Source: Desulfobacterales bacterium (lineage in GTDB: Bacteria; Desulfobacterota; Desulfobacteria; Desulfobacterales; JARGFK01). From it: a DNA stretch of 59,621 nt. A model generated the notes under the pieces. It made no database searches, was not told the origin of the DNA, and worked only from the letters and a program-made list of their open reading frames with translations. Position numbers and translations under genes: made by a program. Shown one piece after another: positions 8,652 to 49,902 of this stretch (positions are counted from its first letter, which is position 1; the number at the start of each line of letters is the position of its first letter). The DNA lies in the NCBI GenBank assembly GCA_029211065.1, contig JARGFK010000015.1:1-59621 (forward strand), in the 5' to 3' direction.

Positions 8652-9989
8652 ATGAGTTGCAATAGTTGTATGGCCAGAGAGGAAGTTTTAAAATTTGTCA
8701 GAGATAATAATGTCAGTTTTATCCAGTTCTGGTTTACGGATGTTCTGGGCATGCTCAAAAGCTTTGCGGTGACACCCACCGAACTGGAGAGCGGCATGAT
8801 GGAAGGCATGGGGTTTGACGGCTCTTCCATTGAGGGATTTGCCCGGATAGAGGAAAGCGATATGATCGCCATGCCCGACCCGACCACATTTCAATTGCTG
8901 CCGTGGCGTCCGGAGGACAGACCGGTGGCCAGAATGTTTTGTGACATTATGAACCCGGATATGACCCCATACGAGGGGGACCCCCGCTATGTGCTCAAAC
9001 GGCTGTTAAATAAAATCGCCGAAAAAGGATATAAGATGTACGTCGGGCCGGAATTGGAATATTTTTATTTTAAAAGCGATGAAAACCCGGAAGGAATCGA
9101 TACCGGAGGATATTTTGACAGCCGGCCCCTGGACAAGGCCTCGGATTTGAGGCGCGAAACCATTTTTGCTTTGCAAAAAATGGGGATTCATGTGGAGTAC
9201 AGCCACCACGAGGTGGCGCCGAGTCAGCATGAAATTGACTTAAGGTACGGCGAGGCCCTGCAGATGTCCGACAAGACCATGACCTATCGGATCGTGGTCA
9301 AGGAAATCGCCAGGAAGCACGGCTGTTACGCCACGTTTATGCCCAAGCCGATTTTCGGTGAAAACGGCAGCGGCATGCACGTCCACCAGTCGCTGTTTAA
9401 GGGTGAGAAAAATCTGTTTCATGATGCCAACGACCCCTATCACTTATCCAAGATGGCCAAGGGATATATCGCCGGAATCATGAAACATGCCCGCGAAATT
9501 GTCGCCGTGACCAACCAGTGGGTCAATTCCTACAAACGCCTAGTCCCCGGGTATGAAGCGCCGGTATATATTTCATGGGCGCGGCGAAACCGATCGGCCA
9601 TGATCCGGGTTCCCATGTACAAGCCCGGAAAGGAATTGGCCACCCGGATCGAATTTCGCGCGCCGGATCCTGCCTGTAATCCCTATCTGGCTTTTGCCGT
9701 CATGCTGGCGGCCGGATTAAAAGGGATTGAAAATGAATATGAACTGCCCTCGCCGATTGAAGAAGACATTTACAGCATGAGTGAAAAAGACAAGAAAAAG
9801 AAAAAAATTATAACACTTCCGGGAAATCTTTATGAGGCTATTCTGGAAGTGGAAAAATCAAAAGTTGTCAGCGAGGCGCTGGGCCAGCATATTTTCAACA
9901 AGTTTGTGGAAAACAAGAAAATTGAATGGGATCGGTATCGCACCCATGTCAGCCAGTTTGAGATTGATAAATATCTTTCAATCACCTAA
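8652..9989 (+). CDS. glnA: Glutamine synthetase, type I
   Basis: A 445-aa glutamine synthetase that makes glutamine from glutamate, ammonia and ATP, a dodecamer in the cytoplasm. Signatures in order: FTDVLGMLKSF near the N terminus, MGFDGSSIEGF (beta-grasp end), GPELEYF (metal ligand), NGSGMHVHQSL (ATP site), and RNRSAMIRVP. The length (about 445, not 470) and absence of the NLYDLPPEE adenylylation loop put it in the GSI-alpha group, so control by GlnE adenylylation is not expected. AGGAGG lies 7 bases upstream of ATG. No nitrogen-regulatory gene sits beside it. Confidence 0.95.
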   Translation: MSCNSCMAREEVLKFVRDNNVSFIQFWFTDVLGMLKSFAVTPTELESGMMEGMGFDGSSIEGFARIEESDMIAMPDPTTFQLLPWRPEDRPVARMFCDIMNPDMTPYEGDPRYVLKRLLNKIAEKGYKMYVGPELEYFYFKSDENPEGIDTGGYFDSRPLDKASDLRRETIFALQKMGIHVEYSHHEVAPSQHEIDLRYGEALQMSDKTMTYRIVVKEIARKHGCYATFMPKPIFGENGSGMHVHQSLFKGEKNLFHDANDPYHLSKMAKGYIAGIMKHAREIVAVTNQWVNSYKRLVPGYEAPVYISWARRNRSAMIRVPMYKPGKELATRIEFRAPDPACNPYLAFAVMLAAGLKGIENEYELPSPIEEDIYSMSEKDKKKKKIITLPGNLYEAILEVEKSKVVSEALGQHIFNKFVENKKIEWDRYRTHVSQFEIDKYLSIT

Positions 9990-33866: not shown

Positions 33867-34436
33867 TTACTTTTTTGCAGCCGTTGTCTGTTGGGGAGCT
33901 GCCTTTTGACAACTGATATCAAAACTCTTAAGATTATATTTTAAAATGGTTTGCTGGTTCACGGTTTGTAAATTTATATTCGTATATAATTTTGATTTTT
34001 CCAGCCGGGTCATAAAATCGGCAACGGTCTTGTTGTCCAGGGCAATCCCTTTTATGCTGACACTGCGACCGGTCAAACGAAGGTTGGTAAGCCACATCCG
34101 TTTTTCAATGATCAACTCGTTAATGGAGTCAAGAAAACTTAACGGCACTTCCCGGTTTACGTTTAACTGGTTGATGATTCGCGTCTTGTTTTGGAGATCT
34201 TCCAGACGCTTTTTGATTTGCTGTATTTCTTGTATGTCTTTTTTGTAAGTTGCCAGCTCCCTTTTTTTTGCTTCAATTTCGGTTTCGAGAGTTGTGAGTT
34301 TGTCGTTTAAGGTCCCATTATAGTAGACTAAGGTCACGGCCGTAAAAGCAAACATCAAAACAAAAATGGACAACTGGCGACGGATGTTTTCTTTCTTGCG
34401 TGCGGCCCGAAATGGCAATAGGTTAATTCGTATCAT
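33867..34436 (-). CDS. pilN: Type IV pilus assembly protein PilN
   Basis: A 189-aa bitopic protein starting MIRINLLPFR, the segment that binds PilM in the cytoplasm. One membrane helix (about 24-43), a coiled coil (about 45-95) and a periplasmic domain (SFLDSINELIIEKRMWLTNL) follow. It overlaps pilM by 4 bases (ATGA). Confidence 0.94.
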   Translation of the reverse strand: MIRINLLPFRAARKKENIRRQLSIFVLMFAFTAVTLVYYNGTLNDKLTTLETEIEAKKRELATYKKDIQEIQQIKKRLEDLQNKTRIINQLNVNREVPLSFLDSINELIIEKRMWLTNLRLTGRSVSIKGIALDNKTVADFMTRLEKSKLYTNINLQTVNQQTILKYNLKSFDISCQKAAPQQTTAAKK

Positions 34437-35488
34437 TTGTCATCAGCTCTTCTGATTGCCAGGCCCATGCAGATAGCAGCCTGGGGGGCAATTTGTTCAA
34501 GATATGATGCATCCAACTTCTTATTATCAATAATTAAGTTTTTAAATGGGTCAATCGTTTCAACTTCAGTAGAAGTTTCAACGGCCAGCAGTTCTTGAAA
34601 TTCTTTAATGTTGGCGCCGCCTCCGCTGAGAATAACCCGTTTAATCTGTTCATCCGGATAGGTCGAGTAAAAAAAGTCTAAAGCCCTTCTAATTTCGGCA
34701 CACCAATCGCTTACAACGGCCGAAGTAATTTCAGACAGGTCATCTTTGGATATCTTATCTGTTTTTTCATTAAATTTGATGTCTTCGGCGTCTTCTGCCG
34801 AACAATTAGCGAGAGACATGATTTTCTGATTGATTTGGCTGCACCCCAAGGAGACATCGCGCATAAAAACGGAAAAAGATCCCTTCAGAATATTCAGTGA
34901 AGTTTTACTGGCGCCAATATCAATTAAGGCAATACTTTCTTCTTCACCTTCATAGTTCAGTTCAAATATATTTTGCAGGGCAAAGGCATCAACATCAAGT
35001 ATGAGGGGGTTTAATCCGGCCAGTTGAACAACATTCAGATAATCTTCGACCATTTCTTTTTTTGCCGCTACGAGGATCACGTTCATTTGATTGGGGTTGT
35101 TTTCATTTTCTCCAATAATTTGAAAATCTAAATTGACATCGCTGATATCAAACGGGATGTACTGTTCTGCTTCAAGCTGGATGGTTTCTTGAAGTTCTGC
35201 TTCTGTCATTGTTTGGACGGTTATATTTTTGACGATGATAGAAAATCCGCCTATCGATATGGCGACGTTTTGTTCCTTGATCCCGGCAGTTTTAAACAAT
35301 TCATGAATTTTTTGTGCCGCAATATCGGGTTCTCGAATGGTCCCTTCTTCAATAACGCCTGGGGGAATATCCAGCATTGAGAAGTTTTTCAGGCTGCGTC
35401 CTTTCTTTGAGTCAACGATTTCACCGACTTTGAAAGTGCAGGAACCAATGTCTAAGCCAACCAGGTTATATTTTTTTCCAAATAGCAT
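34433..35488 (-). CDS. pilM: Type IV pilus assembly ATPase-like protein PilM
   Basis: A 351-aa actin-fold cytoplasmic protein that anchors the alignment complex through PilN. LVGLDIGSCTFKVGEI is the phosphate-1 motif of the actin fold, ALIDIGASKTSLNIL phosphate-2, and VILSGGGANIKEF the adenosine motif. Length is typical. First structural gene of the operon, preceded by 8 bases by an HTH gene. Confidence 0.94.
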   Translation of the reverse strand: MLFGKKYNLVGLDIGSCTFKVGEIVDSKKGRSLKNFSMLDIPPGVIEEGTIREPDIAAQKIHELFKTAGIKEQNVAISIGGFSIIVKNITVQTMTEAELQETIQLEAEQYIPFDISDVNLDFQIIGENENNPNQMNVILVAAKKEMVEDYLNVVQLAGLNPLILDVDAFALQNIFELNYEGEEESIALIDIGASKTSLNILKGSFSVFMRDVSLGCSQINQKIMSLANCSAEDAEDIKFNEKTDKISKDDLSEITSAVVSDWCAEIRRALDFFYSTYPDEQIKRVILSGGGANIKEFQELLAVETSTEVETIDPFKNLIIDNKKLDASYLEQIAPQAAICMGLAIRRADDK

Positions 35489-36300: not shown

Positions 36301-37746
36301 ATGTATTTTACAGTTATCACAATGCCGATTCTCCAAACTACAGAAGAAAAAATAAAGCCGTTTAGGTTGGTCAAGTATTTTACTTTTACCAGCCTAATTG
36401 TAATTTTTTTGGGAACCGTCGTTCTGTCGGCACTCAACACCCACTGGGCCAGGATGCTGCAGCTTAAAAAAAGTGAGGACTATGCCCTTGTTTTGGTTGA
36501 AAACCTGAATCATCAGATTTTTACGCAATTTCTTATCCCCGTCTTGATCCGATACGGCAAAATACAGCTTCGCGAAGAGGAGCAGTTTAAGCGGATGGAC
36601 AAGGTTGTTCGAAGCACGCTCCACAGTTTCAAGGTCGACCAGGTGAACATTTACGATATGGGAAATACGGTGTCCTACAGCTTCAATAAGAGTATTATCG
36701 GTCAAAAAGATATCGGCGGGACAGGCTACCAAAATGCGATTGAGGGACAGTCTACCTCAAGACTGATTCAAAGGGGAAATTTTTGGGAGATTCTTCTGGG
36801 AATACCCAAGGAGAGCAAAATCGTGACCTTTGCGCCGCTACGTGTGGAACGACCGATGTCGACATTATCGGGACCGGTTCTGGGTGTTGTTGAGATTGTT
36901 CAGGATTTGTCTGAAGAATATCAGGCAATATTCAAGTTCCAAATTATAGTCATTCTGACATACGCCATTGTCATGGGGGTTTTATTCCTGGTTCTTCTAT
37001 TTGTTGTTAAACGGGGTGAAAGTATCAGCGAACAACGGGCCCAGGAAAGACTGGAACTTAAGGAACAGTTAAGCCGGGCCGAGCGGTTGTCATCTTTGGG
37101 AGAAATGACGGCAGGGATTTCACATGAAATACGCAATCCCTTAGGTATTATCAGGAGTTCCGCCGAACTGCTCAGGAAAAAAATGACGGTGCTGGATCCC
37201 GCCAATACGATCCCGAACGTTATCGTTGAGGAAACCAATCGGCTCAATGACATCATTACCGGTTTTATCAGCTTTGCAAAGCCTAAAAAACCGAACCTGA
37301 TTCCCTGCCGGATTGAAGATGTCATTGAAAAAAACATCAAGTTCCTTGAATCCCAGATGCAGGAACAGGGCTATCAGGTCCTCCGGCATTATGAAAACAG
37401 TTCGCCTGAAATAATGGCGGACTTCGCCATGATGTACCAGGCGTTTTTGAATATTCTGATCAATGCGATGCAGGCAATGCCGCAGGGTGGAAATATTCAC
37501 ATTGGTGTCGGGGTCAATGAACAGTTCGTTAATATTAATTTTGAAGATGAGGGCGAGGGGATTAAAGAGAGTGTTCTTGGAAAAATTTGGGAGCCTTTTT
37601 TTACCACAAAGGATACGGGGTCGGGACTCGGCCTGGGTATCGTGAAAAATATCGTCGAATCACACGGGGGAAATATCCACATTGAACAGAGAACCCCCAA
37701 GGGAACGCGCGTTGTTGTTAACCTGCCGCTGACCCGTGAGGGATGA
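36301..37746 (+). CDS. Membrane sensor histidine kinase (ZraS/PilS-like)
   Basis: A 481-aa sensor kinase: first membrane helix at about 28-50, a periplasmic sensory region of about 150 residues (VLENLNHQIF... GRVIPVLIRYGK-like, KIVTFAPLRVERP), second helix at about 212-235, a short linker, HisKA with phospho-acceptor His in AGISHEIRNPLGII, and ATPase motifs NILINAMQAM, DEGEGI and GSGLGLGIVKN. The sensory domain has no named fold I can see. It overlaps the regulator gene by 4 bases (ATGA), so they are a pair, and it likely feeds the sigma-54 module downstream. Confidence 0.85.
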   Translation: MYFTVITMPILQTTEEKIKPFRLVKYFTFTSLIVIFLGTVVLSALNTHWARMLQLKKSEDYALVLVENLNHQIFTQFLIPVLIRYGKIQLREEEQFKRMDKVVRSTLHSFKVDQVNIYDMGNTVSYSFNKSIIGQKDIGGTGYQNAIEGQSTSRLIQRGNFWEILLGIPKESKIVTFAPLRVERPMSTLSGPVLGVVEIVQDLSEEYQAIFKFQIIVILTYAIVMGVLFLVLLFVVKRGESISEQRAQERLELKEQLSRAERLSSLGEMTAGISHEIRNPLGIIRSSAELLRKKMTVLDPANTIPNVIVEETNRLNDIITGFISFAKPKKPNLIPCRIEDVIEKNIKFLESQMQEQGYQVLRHYENSSPEIMADFAMMYQAFLNILINAMQAMPQGGNIHIGVGVNEQFVNINFEDEGEGIKESVLGKIWEPFFTTKDTGSGLGLGIVKNIVESHGGNIHIEQRTPKGTRVVVNLPLTREG

Positions 37747-39131
37747 ACATGGAAACAATATTGATCGTTGATGATGAAAAAAATTATCCTCCTGTTTTAA
37801 GCGCTGTATTGGAGGACGCAGGATTTGAAACCTTAATGGCCTATGGCGGACCGGAAGCGTTGGCAGTTTTGGAAGATTCCGATGTGGATCTGGTCCTTAC
37901 CGATATGAAAATGCCCGGCATGGATGGTATTGAACTGCTTGAGCGCATTAAGGCAAGGGACCCTGAACTTCCGGTTATCATGATGACCGCGCATGGAACC
38001 ATTGAAAAGGCGGTCGAGGCAATGCAAAAAGGCGCTTACAGCTACCTGCTGAAGCCTTTCGACAACGAGCAGCTGATTCTATATGTGAACAAGGCCAACG
38101 CCATGTTCAGGGTGGTCAAAGAGAACCGGCATCTTCGGAGCGCAGTCGAAACCCGCTACAGTTTCGGGAACATTATCGGAAAAAGCAAACCGATGTCAGA
38201 GATATTTGAAATGATCCGGAAAGTCGCACCCACCAGTGCAACGGTGATGATCGAAGGGGAAAGCGGCACCGGCAAAGAACTGGTGGCGAAATCGATTCAT
38301 TTCAACAGCCCCAGAAGAGAGAAGCCTTTCGTGGCGGTCAGTTGCAGCGCCCTGGCCGAAACCCTTTTGGAGAGTGAATTATTCGGCCATGAAAGGGGCG
38401 CATTTACCGGTGCGGTGGCGACCAAGAAAGGTCGTTTTGAGTTGGCGGACGGCGGCACCCTGTTTCTGGATGAAATCGGCGAACTATCCCCTGTTTTGCA
38501 GGTTAAGTTGCTGCGGGTTTTGCAGGAAAAGGTGTTTGAAAGGGTCGGCGGGGTTAAGCCGATATCCGTTGACATTCGAATTATTGCGGCCACCAATAAA
38601 AAATTGAGACAGGAGGTTATAAAAGGACATTTCCGTGAAGACCTTTATTTTCGCCTTAATGTGGTTCACATCGTATTGCCGCCATTGCGGGAACGTCCCG
38701 AAGATATCCGCCTTTTAATTAATCACTTTATTCAAAAATATTCCCAAGAACTCAAACCGGATGTCCCGGTCAAGGGGGTCGAGAAAGAAGCCGAGCGTCT
38801 TTTCTATGAATACGGCTGGCCGGGAAATATACGTGAACTTGAGAATGTCATTGAAAGGGGTATCATTCTCTGCTCAGGCGATCATATTGAAGTGTCGGAT
38901 TTGCCTAAAGATTTTAAGGAGAATCTCGATAATGCGCAGTCACTCGAGTGGATACCGGCTAATGCAAAGCTGTATGATACCGTCTCAGCTATAGAAAAGA
39001 AAATGTTAGAAAGGGCATTGTTGTTGACAAATCATGTGCAGACAGATGCTGCCGAACTGCTGGGAATTGGACGAAGCGGATTTAACAAAAAAATTAAAAA
39101 ATACGGAATCCCTATTAGAGATAACAAATAA
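37743..39131 (+). CDS. Sigma-54-dependent response regulator (bEBP)
   Basis: A 462-aa activator: receiver with phospho-Asp54 in LTDMKMPGMDG, AAA+ domain with Walker A GESGTGKE, intact sigma-54 loop GAFTGA, Walker B TLFLDEIGEL and arginine-finger region, then a C-terminal Fis-type HTH (TDAAELLGIGRSGFNKKIKK). With the intact GAFTGA it should activate sigma-54 promoters on phosphorylation. The one visible sigma-54 promoter nearby is 39362-39378, just after this gene, with palindromes between. That makes the small RNA there its most likely target. Contrast with the NtrX-like protein at 17417, whose loop is altered. Confidence 0.88.
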   Translation: MNMETILIVDDEKNYPPVLSAVLEDAGFETLMAYGGPEALAVLEDSDVDLVLTDMKMPGMDGIELLERIKARDPELPVIMMTAHGTIEKAVEAMQKGAYSYLLKPFDNEQLILYVNKANAMFRVVKENRHLRSAVETRYSFGNIIGKSKPMSEIFEMIRKVAPTSATVMIEGESGTGKELVAKSIHFNSPRREKPFVAVSCSALAETLLESELFGHERGAFTGAVATKKGRFELADGGTLFLDEIGELSPVLQVKLLRVLQEKVFERVGGVKPISVDIRIIAATNKKLRQEVIKGHFREDLYFRLNVVHIVLPPLRERPEDIRLLINHFIQKYSQELKPDVPVKGVEKEAERLFYEYGWPGNIRELENVIERGIILCSGDHIEVSDLPKDFKENLDNAQSLEWIPANAKLYDTVSAIEKKMLERALLLTNHVQTDAAELLGIGRSGFNKKIKKYGIPIRDNK

Positions 39132-39197: not shown

Positions 39198-39235
39198 ATT
39201 TCCATTTGGAAACCGGCTTGTTTCCAAATGGAAAC
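39198..39235 (+). promoter_or_regulatory. Two phased palindromes, probable activator binding sites (UAS)
   Basis: Site 1, ATTTCCATTTGGAAAC (39198-39213), and site 2, GTTTCCAAATGGAAAC (39220-39235), are both near-perfect palindromes of the same TTTCCA(A/T)(A/T)TGGAAA type. Their centres are 22 bases apart, about two helical turns, so both face the same side of the DNA. They lie about 160 and 183 bases upstream of the predicted sigma-54 start, the usual range for enhancer sites. A weak IHF-like match (AATCAAATTTATA, 39290-39302) lies between them and the promoter. Confidence 0.7.
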
Positions 39236-39361: not shown

Positions 39362-39378
39362 TTGGCAAGTATTTTGCA
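39362..39378 (+). promoter_or_regulatory. Sigma-54 (-24/-12) promoter
   Basis: TTGGCAAGTATTTTGCA matches the sigma-54 consensus TGGCAcr-N4-TTGCw. The GG (39364-39365) and GC (39376-39377) are exactly 12 bases apart, start to start, as required. Transcription should begin near 39389. No coding gene follows before a terminator at 39426-39462. Confidence 0.8.
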
Positions 39379-39388
39379 GTGATATAGA

Positions 39389-39462
39389 ATCAAACCTAAA
39401 CCTTAATTCTGTTTTCCTCCTTTTTATGGCGAGTCAGGATGTTCCTGACTCGCCATTTTTTT
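39389..39462 (+). ncRNA. Candidate sigma-54-dependent small RNA (about 74 nt)
   Basis: The predicted transcript runs from the sigma-54 start to the end of the terminator T-run. It has an unpaired, C/U-rich 5' part of about 37 nt containing UUUUCCUCCUUUUU (39412-39425), complementary to the Shine-Dalgarno core GGAGG, and then a perfect terminator hairpin with seven U's, an Hfq-type 3' end. No ORF with an RBS fits inside. The target is unknown; the anti-SD tract suggests that it blocks ribosome binding on mRNAs. The alternative is that the hairpin simply ends the regulator mRNA and the -24/-12 match is a coincidence. Confidence 0.6.
39426..39462 (+). terminator. Strong rho-independent terminator
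   Basis: ATGGCGAGTCAGGA (39426-39439), loop TGT, and TCCTGACTCGCCAT (39443-39456) form a perfect 14-bp stem, followed by seven T's (39456-39462). On the minus strand the stem is followed by AAAAAGGAGG, with no T-run, so it works only for plus-strand transcripts. Confidence 0.9.
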
Positions 39463-39522
39463 GTCTGGTACTTTAAATATAAAAACAGACTCGCTCTTGA
39501 TTCTGAAAAAAAAGCTTTGTAT

Positions 39523-48614: not shown

Positions 48615-49902
48615 ATGAAGCGAAATTATTCAGGATATTATATTTGTATAGTGGCTATCATTTTTCTGTTGGTATCGACCTGGAGCAGCCGTGTGCAGGC
48701 CCAACCGGTCGATGCCCGGACCCTTTGAAAAGATGCAGCGTCTGATCGAGCAGCAGCAATCCCAGCTGGATGCCCAGGCCAAGGCGATTGAAGACATGAA
48801 AAAACAGCTCCAGGCCCTTTCCAAGGCGGGGCAGCCTTCAACGGCAACCGCTGAAAAACTTCCGTCCCTGCAAAACATTGTAAAACCCGGCAGCGACAAG
48901 GTGGAGGTGCAGTTATACGGCCAGGTAAACCGGGGTGTCATGTATGCGGACGACGGCAATGACAGCGATTTTTACCATGTGGACAACGATACATCCTCCA
49001 CCCGGCTGGGTATAAATGCCAAAACCCGAACCGGCGGCGATCTGGAAGTCGGCGCGCGCTTCGAGGTCCAGTACGAATCGAACTCTTCGGCTTCGGTCAG
49101 CCAGACAAGCAATTCGACCGGTCCCGATAATTTTACCCAGCGGCACCTCGATTTATTTATAGAATCAAAGCGCTTCGGCAAACTGTCAATCGGCCAAGGG
49201 AACACTGCCTCCAATGAAACCTCTGAAGTGGATCTGTCTGGAACAGCCCTTGTAGGCTATTCTGATATCAGTACCGTGGGGGGCGGCATATTATTCTTTG
49301 ATAAGACCGCCAACAGCCTGTCAGACACGGACATCGGAGATGTTTTCAATAACATGGACGGACTCAGCCGTAGGGACCGCCTGCGCTATGACACCCCCGA
49401 ATTTTTCGGCTTTGTCTTGTCGGGATCGGCTATTGAAAATAATGCCGAGGATATTGCCCTCTGGTATAACCGGAAATTTTCGGGATTTAAACTTGCCGGC
49501 GCGGCTGCCTATGCCAATCCGGGCAATACATCGTTGGACAATCAGTTGGATGGATCCGTCTCCATTCTGCTGGACGGTGGCTTTAATGCCACCTTTGCCG
49601 CCGGCAATCAATACATGCGGGCATCCGGTCAGGATGACGCGACCTTTTACTACGCAAAAATAGGGTTTGTCCGGAAGTATTTTGATATCGGTCCCACGGC
49701 GCTTTCGGTGGATTATGGCCGTTACAACGACGTGGACAGGAATGACGATGAGGCTGACGCCATCGGGTTTCAGTTTGTGCAGAACCTGACGGATTGGCGC
49801 ACGGAGCTGTATATGGGTTACCGCCACGCCAGTCTCGACCGGACAGGTAATGACTTTGAAGATATCAATGTTGTTCTGGGGGGCGGGAGAATCAAATTCT
49901 AG
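48615..49902 (+). CDS. Outer-membrane porin with a +1 frame break after the signal peptide
   Basis: Start ATG 48615 has AGGAGG (48605-48610) upstream. The first 37 codons give a signal peptide (MKRNYSGYYICIVAIIFLLV, cleaved probably after VQA) and then run into TGA at 48726-48728, in the context CTT TGA (48723-48728). The rest of the porin continues in the +1 frame from GAA 48727: a coiled-coil EKMQRLIEQQQSQLDAQAK, then porin strands (VEVQLYGQVNRGVMYADDGN, GARFEVQYESNSS, ALSVDYGRYN) to a C-terminal VVLGGGRIKF. Dropping one T restores the frame as TLEKMQRL. Read together it is about 428 aa, a general-porin size. Either a programmed +1 shift, a mutation, or a sequence error. Confidence 0.8.

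Follow-up and report, generated by a model that had tools for sequence, protein, structure and literature searches.

Genetic organization of the locus

The analyzed window, a stretch of 59,621 nucleotides from a Desulfobacterales bacterium (contig JARGFK010000015.1), carries the genes of a two-component system and, 3' of the regulator gene, a putative sRNA gene with the following features.

36301..37746, plus strand: membrane sensor histidine kinase with AtoS/ZraS-like kinase domain (Pfam HisKA and HATPase_c)
37743..39131, plus strand: NtrC-type sigma54-activating response regulator (Response_reg, Sigma54_activat and HTH_8)
39198..39213, no strand assigned: predicted response-regulator site 1, ATTTCCATTTGGAAAC, one of two palindromes 22 bp apart
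39220..39235, no strand assigned: predicted response-regulator site 2, GTTTCCAAATGGAAAC, palindrome
~39362/39363..39377, plus strand: predicted sigma54 promoter (-24/-12), TTGGCA-N6-TTGC, read from the sequence by its GG-N10-GC spacing
39389..39463, plus strand: putative sRNA of ~75 nt, matched by covariance model R1 at E 2.4e-13
39391..39407, plus strand: predicted 5' pairing seed, divergent in the window (consensus AACCUAAUAAUUU), complementary to boxes in porin mRNA UTRs
39408..39422, plus strand: predicted second seed UCUGUUUUCCUCCUU, containing the anti-Shine-Dalgarno (anti-SD) tract, perfect complement of AAGGAGGAAAACAGA
39426-39463 (hairpin 39426-39456), plus strand: predicted intrinsic terminator, 14-bp stem and T7, from fold and covariation

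The 5'-end of the sRNA was derived from the promoter and the 3'-end from the T-run. The first-pass annotation had placed an anti-SD tract in unpaired RNA before a terminator, and both position and fold bear this out: the tract TTTTCCTCCTTTTT is found at exactly 39412-39425, immediately 5' of the terminator hairpin. The latter is a perfect stem of 14 bp followed by T7 (fold z-score -7.4), and apart from it the RNA is predicted to be single-stranded. The downstream neighbor is encoded on the opposite strand and no same-strand gene follows; therefore, the predicted transcript carries no ORF. The tract sits in a real sRNA gene with a sigma54 promoter, a length of about 75 nt and a covarying terminator; the gene is probably transcribed in cells.

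Conservation and distribution of the sRNA family

Just 3' of the regulator orthologues, 14 of 29 loci showed the same promoter and single-stranded segment combined with a different, equally strong hairpin; this count takes the sRNA of one locus (L030) from a separate reading. A covariance model built from 14 regulator-adjacent loci was searched against 389 genomes of the order and detected the element in 276 of them, with E-values down to 1e-20. In some cases 2-4 copies were found per genome, often distant from the regulator gene. Stretches with 2-3 tandem copies and partly differing terminators were also observed (L294, L296, L119, L287).

In an alignment of 72 homologues the -24 and -12 core columns of the promoter were 97-100% conserved. 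All 12 modelled terminator pairs showed compensatory double changes, with 96.6% of cells paired and 166 covarying cells versus 32 after shuffling. The 35-nt single-stranded part (consensus AACCUAAUAAUUUYUUCAUCUGUUUUCCUCCUUAA) was about 90% identical overall, with 93% for AACCUAAUAAUUU, 91% for CAUCUG and 87% for UCCUCCUUAA, whose individual columns ranged from 76 to 100%; the sequence separating the -12 element from the RNA reached only 47% identity. An exact CCUCC was present in 53 of 75 homologues. The anti-SD tract is thus retained alongside hairpin and promoter. A short pyrimidine tract by itself could be due to chance; its conservation, as judged from the alignment, is not. CCUCC appears to be only a part of the active sequence. 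Searching Rfam 15 yielded no family above the gathering threshold (best weak match 18.7 bits versus a threshold of 50), and no description of this sRNA was found in the open literature, subscription journals being outside the coverage.

Association with the response regulator

The best NCBIfam matches of the kinase were AtoS and ZraS, all under the cut-off. A pilM gene is located upstream of the kinase gene in divergent orientation (window 34433-35488). Orthologues of the regulator, 60-76% identical, were found in most of 58 genomes sampled as one per family of the order.

In the window's own genome, site 2 is the sole exact match of its palindrome, and predicted tandem regulator sites occur only at the sRNA promoter. 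Across genomes, two classes of predicted upstream sites track the recognition helix of the regulator. GTTTCCANNTGGAAAC sites, in two copies 22 bp apart, go with helices of the type SG(F/L)[NS]KK or similar (SGFNKK, SGFSKK and GGLSKK, in six genomes including that of the window), and GGTTCAANNNNTTGAACC sites, in up to three copies about 78 bp apart, go with SGLN[QWM]K (7 adjacent and 8 unlinked loci). By our own arithmetic, which assumes independent lineages, the chance of so clean a match is about 2 in 100,000. Regulator and sRNA tended to occur or to be missing jointly across genomes (Fisher p 3.5e-4), and four genomes had the regulator without a detected sRNA. The site correlation and the co-occurrence support the earlier proposal of a kinase-controlled sRNA, and it is very likely that the adjacent response regulator drives the gene, probably as an activator rather than by binding only.

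Complementarity to porin translation starts

In porin mRNAs, the sRNA consensus is antisense to the region of ribosome site and start codon, AAGGAGGAAAACAGAUGAAGAAA. Read as its reverse complement, the conserved segment gives TTAAGGAGGAAAACAGATGAARAAATTATTAGGTT, i.e. a ribosome site with start codon. Such a sequence might instead belong to a short minus-strand ORF (SD, ATG, MKKLLG...), as it reads as a good RBS followed by MKKLLG. The minus-strand frames stop after only about 6-12 codons and at differing places, the window has ATT where this ORF needs ATG, and it is the plus strand that the sigma54 promoter, the T-run and the regulator sites serve. This explanation was rejected as highly improbable.

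In the own genome, the complement of the 15-nt core has one exact copy beyond the sRNA, namely the start AAGGAGGAAAACAGA of a porin gene on another contig (G000:C71:5627; Porin_4 match, E 1.9e-11). This translation initiation region (TIR) ranked 1 of 373 sampled genes, with a duplex energy of -26.9 kcal/mol versus a mean of -13.5 (sd 4.0); the sample was drawn from about 460 kb of the own genome, and the contig of the porin was included because it holds the match. Extended complementarity to porin starts, of the MicA/RybB type, was found elsewhere as well. Two divergently placed porin genes in G021 carry the long complement CATTAAGGAGGAAAACAGATGAAG, and porin genes of G023 and G057 carry AAGGAGAAAAACAGATGAAAAA, though no sRNA was found in G057. 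One porin gene with the full TIR complement has AGG in place of the expected ATG (L161, G008:C163:40769-40790).

Pairing in the own genome is limited to 15 nt because the 5' seed has drifted and the start-codon part has been lost. sRNAs of other genomes were predicted to bind the own porin better, the own sRNA ranking 27 of 31. Thus, the window's sRNA with its divergent seed version may be a weaker or retuned member of the family.

Two genes of the window, glnA and a porin gene, had been pointed out for their strong matching RBSs. These exist: AGGAGG precedes the glnA ORF (8652-9989) and likewise the porin gene near 48618. Their duplexes of -15.3 and -16.1 kcal/mol are near the gene mean and do not single them out; the best predicted target is the different porin on the other contig. 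The window porin gene (48618-49902) appears to be frameshifted a short way past its signal peptide.

Boxes in porin 5'-UTRs and their co-evolution with the sRNA

The 5' half of the sRNA is complementary to UUAUUAGGU boxes in porin 5'-UTRs, which are often repeated. Among porins collected by protein profile, independently of the sRNA, the UTRs carry up to five TTATTAGGT boxes each, complementary to the 5' seed. The 47 UTRs of sRNA-bearing genomes contained 32 strict boxes versus 0.8 expected from shuffles, and the opposite strand of the same UTRs contained none. Whether or not an sRNA had been detected in a genome made no significant difference to box presence (p=0.29); divergent sRNA copies escaping the model may be the reason. 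Several sRNA-bearing genomes have porins without a box, and some porins pair weakly. In family f69 (L243, L250, L256, L257; genomes G068, G109, G140), arrays of GGTTAGGTT replace TTATTAGGT, and the sRNA seed of this family is predicted to be AACCUAACC. In 37 of 66 UTRs (e.g. L185, L187, L189, L260), a second SD resembling GAAAGGAGGTG was seen 79-167 nt upstream of the porin start; it is reminiscent of STAB-SD mRNA stabilizers and is possibly an extra pairing site. A decoy RNA sharing the motif with its targets was rejected, as the boxes are the complement of the sRNA instead of resembling it.

In divergent lineages, sRNA seed and porin UTR have changed together. The seed CCUGAUAAUUU goes with AAATTATCAGG in the UTR (G170, G014), CCUGAUAAGUUU with TTATCAGGTTT (G112), CCUUAGAUGAA with TTCATCTAAGG (G055) and, imperfectly, AGCAAACUUAAUGAUUUUU with AAAAATTATTAACTTTGCTT (G015); CAUCAUC goes with a doubled ATGATG start (G033), and UCUCC in the sRNA with GGAGA at the porin (G023, G170). 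When partners were swapped among 31 genomes, the summed duplex energy rose from -974 for own pairs to -875, the best of 20,000 permutations reaching -935 (p<=5e-5). With the RBS region removed and only the 5' seed considered, the summed perfect-match length was 329 versus 270+-9 for all genomes and 141 versus 102+-6 for the 14 divergent genomes alone (each p<=5e-5). All these p-values ignore relatedness among the genomes.

A broader role, the silencing of many strong-SD mRNAs by CCUCC, had been envisaged in the first-pass annotation. The wide conservation of CCUCC is in line with a general anti-SD RNA of this kind, as is the own-genome dnaK start, where the sRNA complement recurs with one mismatch as AAGGAGGAAAACACATG (L065, G000:C29:2175-2189, minus strand). 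In contrast, conservation of the spacer, the start-codon parts and the 5' seed equals or exceeds that of CCUCC, the change of CCUCC to UCUCC is matched at the porin, and the duplexes predicted for glnA and the window porin are of average strength. We regard general silencing as quite unlikely; pairing specificity seems to come instead from duplexes of 15-26 nt with porin initiation regions and from the UTR boxes.

The annotation had also seen an Hfq-binding layout in the U-rich flanks. A search for the Hfq family gave no match in any of 58 genomes of the order, the own genome included, while controls from E. coli, B. subtilis and others were positive. Therefore, the Hfq reading was rejected, which suggests a mechanism that is chaperone-free or uses another chaperone. 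What stands of the earlier reading is a kinase-controlled sRNA with a conserved anti-SD tract apparently able to block translation; the Hfq layout, the broad silencing and a special role of glnA and the window porin were given up.

Proposed mechanism

With a probability of roughly 0.8, we favor a pathway leading from the kinase via the regulator and sigma54 to the sRNA and to porin repression without Hfq. Gene anatomy, conservation, complementarity, sRNA-UTR co-evolution, regulator-site correlation and Hfq non-detection were computed for this reading. The two-component system would sense a signal, presumably on the envelope side, and the regulator, once bound to both palindromes ahead of the sRNA gene, would activate the sigma54 promoter. 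The 3' seed of the sRNA (CAUCUGUUUUCCUCCUU in the consensus) would pair with SD and start codon of the porin mRNA, and the 5' seed AACCUAAUAAUUU with the UUAUUAGGU box or boxes of the 5'-UTR. Such a duplex would block ribosome loading, and porin synthesis would drop while the kinase is active. Hfq would play no role, and long, sometimes repeated pairing may substitute for it.

The outcome is probably repression. Pairing at UTR boxes away from the RBS would also fit activation or stabilization of the mRNA, and several boxes per UTR could make the porin mRNA a sponge titrating the sRNA. Since the second seed directly covers SD and start codon in many genomes, the classical repressive position, we consider these outcomes unlikely. 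Beyond the repression pathway, it appears reasonably probable that an sRNA family spanning the order and working without Hfq, with a kinase and regulator of its own, controls fast-evolving porins via arrays of short boxes, RNA and boxes co-evolving in each lineage.

Such a family would provide this environmental, probably sulfate-reducing order with a conserved envelope-control circuit that is absent from the searched open literature. It would suggest that porins came under the control of trans-acting sRNAs without Hfq, and would illustrate how long duplexes and repeated boxes can maintain pairing. The lineage-specific seed changes offer a natural experiment on sRNA-target co-evolution and the two regulator-site classes a second one on activator-site co-evolution.

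Comparison with known systems

The enterobacterial sRNAs MicA, RybB, MicC and MicF use Hfq and repress porins. The putative sRNA described here resembles them as a trans-acting RNA predicted to pair at the SD/start region of porins in envelope control, and it differs in its promoter class, the UTR box arrays and the lack of an Rfam match; in addition, no Hfq was found here. In the CbrAB-CrcZ, LuxO-Qrr and GlrR-GlmY systems an NtrC-type regulator drives an sRNA from a sigma54 promoter, a control logic matching the circuit proposed here, and crcZ is located downstream of cbrB, similar to the position of our sRNA gene 3' of the regulator gene. In contrast to a porin-pairing sRNA, CrcZ is a protein decoy, and Qrr and GlmY, which depend on Hfq or RapZ, act on other targets.

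The nearest report, by its arrangement, concerns another sulfate reducer. In D. vulgaris the response regulator DVU0679 targets Dv_sRNA2 downstream of its own gene; the function of this sRNA is not known, and orthologues were found in some Desulfovibrio, Desulfotomaculum and Symbiobacterium, none being named in the compared Desulfobacterales (PMC3333781). LhrC of Listeria, a multicopy sRNA under an envelope-stress two-component system (PMC4132741), is by its description alike in copy number and control, and differs in its Gram-positive host and its targets.
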